A DNA stretch of 64,000 nt. It comes from Glycomyces sambucus. Its GTDB lineage: Bacteria; Actinomycetota; Actinomycetes; Mycobacteriales; Micromonosporaceae. Within the stretch, counting starts at the first letter, position 1. Every line of letters begins with the position of its first letter. The position numbers and the translations under genes are program-made. The notes under the pieces were generated by a model. The model saw only the letters and a program-made list of their open reading frames with translations. It had not been told where the DNA came from and did no database searches. The stretch is from positions 434,001 to 498,000 of the forward strand of contig NZ_FNGF01000004.1 in NCBI RefSeq assembly GCF_900102815.1, read 5' to 3'. This document shows positions 54,180 through 59,278 of this stretch, in pieces.

Positions 54180-54224
54180 CCCGAGTCCCAAAACCAGGGC
54201 GGCTTTAGCTGCGTCTTTGACGGG

Positions 54225-54230
54225 TATGAT
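54225..54230 (+). promoter_or_regulatory. Possible -10 box of bldD
   Basis: TATGAT lies 134 bp upstream of the bldD start. No good -35 is seen at the right spacing, as is common in actinobacteria. It would give a 5' UTR of about 125 nt. Confidence 0.35.
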
Positions 54231-54303
54231 GTGTTTTGCCGGTCAGTCTTTCGGGCCTTGCGCGACGAAGAACACTGTTTGGGGGCACCCCAACGGCCGA
54301 TGG

Positions 54304-54316
54304 TCACCGACGGTAG
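54304..54316 (+). promoter_or_regulatory. Possible BldD box upstream of bldD
   Basis: TCAC-N5-GTAG matches 7 of 8 fixed positions of the BldD site TNAC-N5-GTNA, 48 bp before the bldD start. BldD is known to autoregulate in Streptomyces. A nearby TTGGGG-N3-CCCCAA repeat (54279-54293) may also take part. Confidence 0.4.
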
Positions 54317-54363
54317 TCAACAATAGGATTCCTCTCGTACCGAAAATTGGAGTTGATCCCAGC

Positions 54364-54864
54364 ATGGCGACATCTGACTACGCCAAGGCGCTCGGCAACC
54401 GGCTGCGCGACATTCGGATGCAGCAGGGCCTGTCCCTGCAAGGCGTCGAGGACAAGTCCGGCGGCAAGTGGAAGGCCGTCGTCATCGGTTCCTACGAGCG
54501 GGGCGACCGGTCCATCACCGTCAGCCGCCTCGCCGAACTGGCCGACTTCTACCGGATCCCCGTCTCGGAACTGCTCCCCGAGGGCGTGCCGCTCCCGGTC
54601 GAGCAGGCCGAGAAGATCGTCCTCAACCTCGAGGCGCTCTACGACCACCCCGACCCCGAGCTGGAGCACGTCGCCAAGCTCGCGCGCTCCATCCAGCAGC
54701 GCCGCGGCGACTACAACGGACGGATCCTCTCGATCCGCGCCGACGACCTGTACACGCTCGCGGTCGTCTACTCGACCACGCCCTCCGGCCTGATCGAGAA
54801 GCTCGAGGACTTCGGCGTGCTCGTGCACGACCTCCAGGCGTTCTTCGCCTCGGACGGCGAGTAG
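54364..54864 (+). CDS. bldD: Developmental master regulator BldD
   Basis: A 166-residue XRE-type regulator. The HTH (about residues 10-75) includes NRLRDIRMQQGLSLQGVEDKS and WKAVVIGSYERGDRSITVSRL (in parts). The C-terminal domain carries the c-di-GMP-binding signature RGD (114-116)-x8-RADD (125-128), at the same residue numbers as in Streptomyces BldD. There it holds a c-di-GMP tetramer that dimerises the protein to repress sporulation genes. Short, single gene; terminator follows. It sits next to pyrR divergently, as in other actinobacteria. Confidence 0.96.
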   Translation: MATSDYAKALGNRLRDIRMQQGLSLQGVEDKSGGKWKAVVIGSYERGDRSITVSRLAELADFYRIPVSELLPEGVPLPVEQAEKIVLNLEALYDHPDPELEHVAKLARSIQQRRGDYNGRILSIRADDLYTLAVVYSTTPSGLIEKLEDFGVLVHDLQAFFASDGE

Positions 54865-56049: not shown

Positions 56050-56484
56050 CTAGGCGGTGAGGGAGGCGAGGTGGCGCAGGGCCGCGGTGTAGCCGTCGGC
56101 GCCCAGGCCGGCGATGACGCCCTTGGCGTGGGCGGACACGAAGGAGTGGTGCCGGAACGCCTCGCGCTGGTGGACGTTGGAGAGGTGGACCTCGATGAGC
56201 GGGGCCGTGAGCTGCGCGCACGCGTCGCCGACGGCCACCGAGTAGTGGGTCCAGGCGGCCGAGTTGAGGACCACCGGGTACGACTCGTCGGCGGCCTCGT
56301 GCAGCCACTCCAGCATCTCGCCCTCGTGGTTGGTCTGGCGGAAGTCCACGTCCAGGCCGAGCTCCGCGCCGGTCTTGGCGCACAGCGCCTCGAGGTCGGC
56401 GAGGGTCTGCGAGCCGTAGATCGCGGGCTCCCGCTTGCCGAGCCGGTTGAGGTTGGGGCCGTTGAGCACGAGCACAGTCGTCAT
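56050..56484 (-). CDS. aroQ: 3-dehydroquinate dehydratase, type II
   Basis: A 144-residue type II dehydroquinase. [22 protein letters not shown] (in part; Arg and catalytic Tyr), [26 protein letters not shown] and [18 protein letters not shown] are the complete active-site set. It overlaps the upstream aroK-aroB gene by 4 bp. Third step of the shikimate pathway. Confidence 0.96.
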
Positions 56485-58037
56485 GCGGTCAGCCTCTCAT
56501 AGGCTTCCCGCTGCTGCTCGGCGGTCACGTCGTCCACGACGACGGGCGCCGCGAGGGCGTCGAGGAGGACGAAGCGCTGGGTGGCGCCGACGTTCTTCTT
56601 GTCGATCTTCATGACCTGGAGCAGCTCATCCCAGCGCCCGGCCTCGTACGTGGTGGGCAGCCCGAGCGATTCGAGGACGGCCTCGGTGCGCTCCACCAGG
56701 TCGACCCGGCCGGTGATGGCGTTCAGGTGCGCGGCGTAGACCATGCCCACGGCGACGGCGTCGCCGTGGCGCCAGCGGTAGTGCTCCAGCTTCTCGATGG
56801 CGTGCGCGAAGGTGTGCCCGTAGTTGAGGACGGCGCGCAGGCCGCCCTCCTTGAGGTCGGAGGCGACGACCTCGGCCTTGACGGCGATGGCGCGCTCGAC
56901 GAGTTCGGCCACGACCGGGCCGGTGGCGTCGAGCGCGGCCCGCGGGTCGGCCTCGACCAGGTCGAGGATGGCCGGGTCGGCGATGAAGCCGGCCTTGACG
57001 ACCTCGGCGAGGCCCGCGGCGAGGTCGCGTTCGGGCAGGGTCGCGAAGTTGTCGAGGTCGACCAGGACCGCGCGGGGCGGGTGGAAGGCGCCGACGAGGT
57101 TCTTGCCGGCGGCGGTGTTCACGCCGGTCTTGCCGCCCACGGCCGCGTCGACGGCGCCGAGCAGCGAGGTCGGGACGTGCACGACCGCGACGCCGCGGAG
57201 CCAGCAGGCGGCGACGAACCCGGCGAGGTCGGTGACCGCGCCGCCGCCGACGCCCACGACGAGGTCGGTGCGGGTGAAGCCCTCGGCGCCGAGCGCGTCC
57301 CAGCACTGCTCGGCGACGGCGACGGTCTTGCCGTCCTCGGCGTCGGGCAGCTCCATGAGCGTGGCCTCGACCCCGTCGGGCAGGAGGGAGCCGACGCGCT
57401 GCGCGAGGAGCGCGGTGCTCTCGGTGTGGAGCACGGCGACGCGGGCGGCCTTCCCGAGGAACTCGGGGAGCCGTTCGACGGTGCCGCGGCCGATGAGGAC
57501 CGGGTAGGGGGTCTCGGCGTCGTTCACGGCGACGGTGCGCACGGCGAGCCTCGCGCGGATCTCGGCGGCCAGGTCGTCCACGTCCCTCCCGGTGGTGTCG
57601 ACCTCGACGTCGGCGACCTCGCGGTACAGCGGCAGGCGCTCGTCCAGGAGGCGGCGCAGCGTGGCGCGGGGGTTGACCTGGAGGAGCGGGCGGCCCTTGT
57701 CGATCTCGTTGCGGCGCACGGCTTCGGCGAGGTCCACGCGGAGGTGGACCACGGGCACGTCGGCGAGGAGCTTGCGGGTGGCCTCGGACAGGACCGCGCC
57801 GCCGCCGAGGGCGAGGACGCCGTCGTGCTCGGCCACGGCCCGGCGCACGGCCTCGCGTTCGAGCGCCCGGAAGTGGTCCTCCCCGTCGTCCACGAAGATG
57901 TCCGCGATCGGCTTGCCCGCGACCGCGACGATGTCGGCGTCGGCGTCGCGGAAGGGCGCGCCGAGCGCGTCGGCCAGCGCGCGGCCGACCGTGGTCTTGC
58001 CGGAGCCGGGCGGCCCGACGATCACGATCAGACTCAT
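56481..58037 (-). CDS. aroKB: Shikimate kinase / 3-dehydroquinate synthase fusion
   Basis: A 518-residue two-domain enzyme. Residues 1-165 are a full shikimate kinase: P-loop GPPGSGKT (8-15), [22 protein letters not shown] and RPLLQ. Residues from about 167 to 518 are a full 3-dehydroquinate synthase: [12 protein letters not shown]-binding [22 protein letters not shown] (260-281), [11 protein letters not shown], and [12 protein letters not shown] and HGDAVAVGM metal ligands. No stop or frameshift separates them; the junction is short ([11 protein letters not shown]). In most actinobacteria aroK and aroB are separate adjacent genes, so this is an uncommon fusion covering steps 2 and 5 of the pathway. 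Confidence 0.93.
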
Positions 58038-58099
58038 CAGCGTTCACTCCGGTTCGGGGAGGGGCGCCGCGGTGCGGCGCCGGCGGGCGGGACGGCGGG

Positions 58100-59278
58100 C
58101 TACTTCACCCGCAGGTGCTCCAGGTACTGCTCGAAGTTGCGGCGCGATTCGCCGACGGAGTCGCCGCCGAACTTCTCCAGGGCGGCCTCGGCGAGGACGT
58201 AGGCGACCATGTGCTCGGCGACGACGGCCCCGGCGGGGACCGCGCAGACGTCGGAGCGCTGGTTGATGGCCTCGGCGGCCTGGCCGGTCTCGGTGTCGAT
58301 GGTGCGCAGCGGGCGCGTGAGCGAGGAGATGGGCTTGAGCATGGCCGAGACGCGGAGCGGCTGGCCGGTGGTGATGCCGCCTTCGAGGCCGCCGGCGCGG
58401 TCGGTGAGGCGCTGGACGCCGTCGGGGCCGGGGACGATCTCGTCGTGGGCGGAGGAGCCGCGGACGGCGGCCTGCATGAGGCCGTCGCCGATCTCGACGG
58501 CCTTGACCGACTGGATCGACATGAGGGCGGTGGCGAGGCGGGCGTCGAGCTTGCGGTCCCACTGGACGTGGGAGCCGAGGCCGGGCGGGACGTTGTAGGC
58601 GAGGACCTCGACGACGCCGCCGAGGGTGTCGGCGTCCTTCTTGGCGGCGTCGACCTCGGCGACCATGCGGGCGGAGGCGTCGGGGTCCATGCAGCGCAGC
58701 GGGTCGGCGTCGACGGCGGCGGCGTCGTCGGGGGTGGGGACGAGCCCTTCCTTGGCGCGGACGGGGCCGAGGGCCTTGACGTGGGAGACGATCTCGATGC
58801 CGAACGCCTGCTTGAGGAAGGCTTTGGCGGCGGTGCCGCCGGCGACGCGGGCGGCGGTCTCGCGGGCGGAGGCGCGCTCAAGGATCGGGCGGGCGTCGTC
58901 GTGGTCGTACTTCTGCATGCCGGCGAGGTCGGCGTGGCCGGGGCGGGGGCGGGTGAGGGGGGCGTTGCGGGCGACGCCTTCGAGTTCGGCGGGGTCGACC
59001 GGGTCGGCGGCCATGACGGTCTCCCACTTGGGCCACTCGGAGTTGCCGACGCGGACGGCGACGGGCGAGCCGAGGGTGCGGCCGTGGCGCAGGCCGCCGA
59101 TGAAGCTGACGGCGTCGGCCTCGAACTTCATGCGGGCGCCGCGGCCGTAACCGAGGCGGCGGCGGGCCAGTTCGGCGGCGACCGCCTCGGTGGTCAGTTC
59201 GATCCCGGCGGGCAGGCCGTCGATCGTGACCACGAGTTCGGGGCCGTGGGACTCTCCAGCTGTCATCCATCGCAACAC
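58100..59278 (-). CDS. aroC: Chorismate synthase
   Basis: A 392-residue FMN-dependent enzyme making chorismate, last step of the shikimate pathway. Signatures: [61 protein letters not shown] and GGITTGQPL with [15 protein letters not shown] start at 59278. First of aroC-aroKB-aroQ-efp-nusB on the minus strand. Confidence 0.96.

Follow-up and report, generated by a model that had tools for sequence, protein, structure and literature searches.

The reading frame at 56481-58037 (minus strand) of the window, that is, the whole stretch of 64,000 nucleotides that was analysed, raises the question of whether the soil bacterium Glycomyces sambucus makes shikimate kinase (AroK) and 3-dehydroquinate synthase (AroB) as one protein, and how two genes came to share a single frame. 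We propose that this gene, aroKB, is very probably translated from the ATG at 58037 into one bifunctional polypeptide, with shikimate kinase (step 5 of the shikimate pathway) at its N-terminus and 3-dehydroquinate synthase (step 2) at its C-terminus.

The fused frame and its two halves

The frame runs from the ATG (58037-58035) to a TGA (56483-56481) and comprises 518 codons and the stop, encoding 518 amino acids. That it holds a full AroK and a full AroB, as the first-pass annotation had claimed, is confirmed, and the motifs named there are present in the translation. The kinase part takes up residues 1-164 (57546-58037, minus strand), as delimited by Pfam PF01202, the predicted model and the structure 1l4u, and the synthase part takes up residues 167-518 (56484-57539, minus strand), as delimited by PF01761, PF24621, TIGR01357 and the structure 3qbd. 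All three Pfam matches lie far above their cut-offs, with SKI (PF01202) at residues 10-164 (145.7 bits), DHQ_synthase (PF01761) at residues 228-339 (146.4 bits) and DHQS_C (PF24621) at residues 342-482 (144.4 bits), and the product passes TIGR01357 (aroB) with 349.6 bits against a cut-off of 305. A complete N-terminal kinase is therefore joined to a complete C-terminal synthase in one uninterrupted frame. In the predicted structure of the fusion (mean pLDDT 87.6, pTM 0.79, from a 22-sequence alignment) the last kinase helix, residues 153-164, is followed by the first synthase strand, residues 167-171, with nearly no linker, and the two-residue joint between them (165-166; 57540-57545, minus strand) falls within 57530-57560, the interval correctly given earlier for the junction. 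The nearest solved structures are 1l4u for the kinase half (E 3.4e-37) and 3qbd for the synthase half (E 3.6e-109), both from Mycobacterium tuberculosis, where AroK and AroB are, however, two polypeptides. The best 50 PDB rows found by Foldseek with the model are all synthases or AROM.

A GGAG word resembling a Shine-Dalgarno sequence (58047-58050, minus strand) stands 9 nt 5' of the aroKB ATG. The gene lies between aroC, encoding chorismate synthase, upstream (58100-59278, minus strand) and aroQ, encoding type II 3-dehydroquinate dehydratase, downstream (56050-56484, minus strand), and the aroQ ATG shares four nucleotides with the aroKB TGA (ATGA, 56481-56484). This ATGA overlap is found in 26 of the 31 members of the wider Glycomyces/Stackebrandtia-type clade described below; three have other spacings, and in two the aroQ start was missed by the motif used. 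Elsewhere in the window a 215-aa ORF (54217-54864, plus strand), located between nusB/efp-like and pyr-like genes, has residues that we take, judging by eye, to be BldD-like, BldD being a developmental regulator.

The catalytic residues of the G. sambucus protein are intact in both halves. The kinase residues G11, K14, D31, D33, R57, G79, R116 and R134 are present, as are the metal ligands E345, H408 and H424 of the synthase half. Across all 41 fusions compared, 21 of the 23 checked catalytic or ligand positions, which were picked by motif, are invariant, the exceptions being T15 (S in seven) and N307 (D in one). These two exchanges, each confined to some of the other fusions, are all that would speak for one half being inactive or having another job, and with its own catalytic residues intact and no second copy of aroB or aroK found in the genome by protein and Pfam profile searches, we regard such a loss of function in G. 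sambucus as scarcely credible. The searched assembly measures 5.6 Mb, is divided among 16 contigs and has a completeness of 99.5%. PF01761 has a single match in it and PF01202 has two above cut-off, the true one in aroKB and a weak one (31.7 bits, G000:C5, L033) that was rejected as a second aroK, being a 182-aa ORF that is gluconokinase-like by eye. The second protein match in the genome covers only residues 4-94 at 35% identity, inside a 754-aa frame. Other matches of pathway type, two to PF08501 and three to PF00275, would agree with the rest of the pathway being present.

Origin and spread of the fusion

In all 22 Glycomyces genomes, G. sambucus included, the match extends from residue 1-3 to residue 517-518 and contains no internal stop. 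As counted here, the protein has 518 residues in 21 of them and five extra residues at the joint in one, and the nearest named loci are those of Glycomyces species at 83-93% identity. An indel or stop at the junction had been named beforehand as the finding that would overturn the fusion, and this comparison shows no stop inside. Since the same stop-free frame recurs in 22 of 22 genus genomes, an overlooked frameshift or stop can in practice be dismissed; likewise, two real genes joined by a sequencing or assembly error would have to have been joined at the same joint in many named species from separate records, to which we attach a negligible probability. In the wider Glycomyces/Stackebrandtia-type clade the fused state is found in 31 of 31 rows, of which 22 belong to the genus Glycomyces and nine do not; among these nine is one named Stackebrandtia albiflava.

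In relatives without the fusion the two genes are adjacent, as the first-pass annotation had stated. At the order level the junction was read in 22 of 24 genomes (G041 is without a full match, and in G044 the halves are on two contigs), giving 18 overlaps of 4 nt, two fusions, one pair that lies apart and one in another frame. Of the 20 order-level genomes from other families in which the genes are unfused, 18 thus have an aroB start codon that overlaps the aroK stop codon (ATGA, GTGA or TTGA) in a different frame, so that loss of the stop between them, the cause put forward earlier, is insufficient by itself and a net +1/-2 shift is needed. Judged from these junctions, the fusion probably needed an indel, beyond the mere loss of a stop. 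We suggest that, in the ancestor of the Glycomyces/Stackebrandtia-type clade, this indel would have arisen where aroK and aroB overlapped by 4 nt, and that the aroB start signals of the clade would have decayed afterwards. Within the family the unfused arrangements vary, and so they do among all 88 unfused unique loci, where there are 23 overlaps, 19 adjacent pairs in another frame, 15 pairs in frame with a stop and 31 pairs that lie apart.

Because the aroKB protein was used to collect the loci, the 129 unique sequences are enriched in fused forms, and any statement of frequency rests only on the family, order, class and phylum draws, in which a fusion that scores as two pieces is overlooked. 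The family draw of 250 genomes gave 37 matches at E <= 1e-130, of which 33 are stop-free and four (G172, G174, G198 and G084) have one in-frame stop; the order draw of 397 genomes gave 22, 16 of them stop-free. NF010627 gave a stop-free full-length match for seven of the 394 class-draw genomes and three of the 396 phylum-draw genomes, both counts being lower bounds because the fusion in G052 was missed at an order-draw-type threshold; the earlier impression of rarity in actinobacteria thus holds in that the fusion is uncommon. None of these drawn actinobacterial genomes, in the class draw (394) or the phylum draw (396), passes the NF010627 cut-off. The G052 locus (L195, family f2) appeared first as two separate matches and proved fused once its junction was read; it is absent from the trees, and L188-L199 lie outside both trees and outside the start-signal counts given below.

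In a synthase-domain tree made by a quick method from 104 of the 129 unique sequences (25 were dropped to thin near-duplicates, namely 23 Micromonospora/Verrucosispora loci in which the two genes are separated, Micromonospora L061 and Streptomyces L076), the 31 fused clade rows, two of them long-branched, stand together with an SH-aLRT of 100. A careful tree of 61 hand-picked rows, from which long-branched rows were excluded, retains 14 clade members as one clade at 100/99. Fused rows outside the clade comprise the Streptomyces-like L127, L154 and L157, which group with a named Streptomyces, family f8 (L125, L126 and L160), the Frankia MAG L064, L028 from G040, and genus g56 (L119 and L120). 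Seven changes between fused and unfused are counted in both trees, and the starred branches force at least four in the quick tree and at least six in the careful one. A common origin for the actinobacterial fusions as a whole is rejected by the AU test (p 8.33e-05; 24 fused rows, Actinomycetota only). On the sequences compared, the fusion state has changed several times, a count that by itself does not separate gains from losses.

Start signals at the joint

A fused frame may still be read as two proteins, and we searched the 27 codons 5' of the conserved start of the synthase for a potential start codon (ATG, GTG or TTG) preceded either by a Shine-Dalgarno-like word at a distance of 4-12 nt or by TANNNT at 5-9 nt. 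A start codon with such a signal is present in 70 of 88 unfused controls and in 9 of the 10 fusions that do not belong to the clade, and in only 5 of 31 clade members. Background windows inside the synthase gene are positive in 24 of 248 cases for the clade and in 30 of 704 for the unfused loci. The clade differs from the other fusions (Fisher p 4.9e-05) and does not differ from background (p 0.34), these p-values being descriptive, as the rows are related and the ten other fusions amount to about six lineages. No conserved internal ribosome-binding site was found in the 31 clade members scored, although some ATG, GTG or TTG without a signal occurs at the joint in 27 of the 31. As the signal in the clade is near background, the clade probably makes the fused protein only.

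G. sambucus is itself among the five positives, with a GAGG (57549-57552) that stands 6 nt before a GTG at codon 166 (57540-57542, minus strand), where aroB would start, and it thus has one candidate internal start. This arrangement, and the retention of a start codon with a signal by nine of the ten fusions elsewhere, would favour a fused frame that nevertheless yields some free AroB, either from that GTG or by cleavage of the protein. The GAGG is, however, missing in the nearest relatives of G. sambucus, two of the 22 Glycomyces have no ATG, GTG or TTG at all from the last kinase motif to the synthase start, and the signal in the clade is at background level, and we therefore consider free AroB unlikely. 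We retain the reading of a single fused product for the clade.

Signals at the old aroB start are seen in several other groups. In 38 of 41 unfused Micromonospora/Verrucosispora loci (among L058-L116), against 0 of 328 background windows, a TAGGCT (a TANNNT -10 box) stands 7-8 nt before the aroB ATG, and this element between aroK and aroB looks like a leaderless aroB promoter. In L119 and L120 of genus g56 a TAGGCT followed after 8 nt by ATG is still found inside the fused frame at the old aroB start, and a promoter within the fused gene may yield free AroB too. At the old aroB start of five further loci (L125, L127, L154, L157 and L160; Streptomyces-like and f8) an ATG is still accompanied by a Shine-Dalgarno-like word, and these loci are perhaps fused by annotation and two proteins in the cell.

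With about even odds in our judgement, the fusions would come in two grades, 'nominal' ones (Streptomyces, f8, g56) that keep the aroB start and make both proteins, and the Glycomyces/Stackebrandtia-type clade as an obligate single polypeptide, with decayed start signals and a joint of about two residues. If this holds, overlapping unfused pairs, leaky fusions and a fixed bifunctional enzyme would form a readable series. Since unfused, leaky and tight forms coexist in related actinobacteria, one can trace how the internal start was lost, and the locus offers a clean case of a translationally coupled gene pair turning into a fusion. It also calls for caution, as annotation of a gene as fused does not preclude a second, internally started protein.

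Function and relation to known fusions

Both halves of the aroKB product would be active, the synthase half dimerising as free AroB does and carrying one kinase per subunit, with the two sites acting independently and a fixed 1:1 supply as the main effect. The first-pass annotation had suggested that the fusion channels intermediates or fixes stoichiometry. A fixed 1:1 stoichiometry is a direct consequence of the fusion, provided that no free AroB is made, and this part of the suggestion stands on that condition. For the other part we found no evidence: steps 3 and 4 intervene between steps 2 and 5, and direct channelling is therefore not expected. The fused state in 31 of 31 clade rows and the repeated origin of the fusion could be taken to mean that it is retained for channelling or for a coupling of the two activities, but such conservation fits mere irreversibility too, and with the two steps apart in the pathway we hold this explanation to be improbable. 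The independent action of the two sites remains our preferred reading; the order of the steps is set out in PMC3018139.

Two NCBIfam models describe bifunctional proteins with the domain order seen here. For NF010627 (PRK14021, bifunctional shikimate kinase/3-dehydroquinate synthase), presumably linked to Bifidobacterium, the Glycomyces protein matches positions 9-540 of 542 with 497.1 bits, short of the required 565. For NF010556 (PRK13951, bifunctional shikimate kinase AroK/3-dehydroquinate synthase AroB), which we associate with Thermotoga, it reaches 201.3 bits against a cut-off of 560, and the match stops at position 410 of 492. The pentafunctional AROM (Aro1) of fungi includes both enzyme domains but has five domains in a different order, and the synthase part of our model matches the AROM structure 6hqv (Foldseek).

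That the idea is not new, as had been conceded from the outset, is borne out by these two models and by fusions in print, each cited here from a portion of its source. In the actinobacterium Gardnerella a protein is named bifunctional shikimate kinase/3-dehydroquinate synthase in a table (PMC12372832), Herbaspirillum seropedicae HSERO_RS20920 is an AroL-AroB fusion (PMC7311316) and Methylobacterium extorquens CM4 Mchl_1923 is a kinase-synthase fusion (PMC3621897); the latter two likewise carry kinase and synthase in one protein but belong to another phylum, and were compared by description only. The available portions of PMC3018139, PMC9026213 and PMC11237513 name no AroK-AroB fusion, the last of these naming aroE-aroK and aroD-aroE fusions in archaea, and no paper on an AroK-AroB fusion in Glycomyces is among the matches listed in our literature searches. 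Glycomyces aroKB, which encodes a housekeeping enzyme of a less common form, is a clade-wide addition to an already known fusion type, and its product passes neither NCBIfam bifunctional cut-off.
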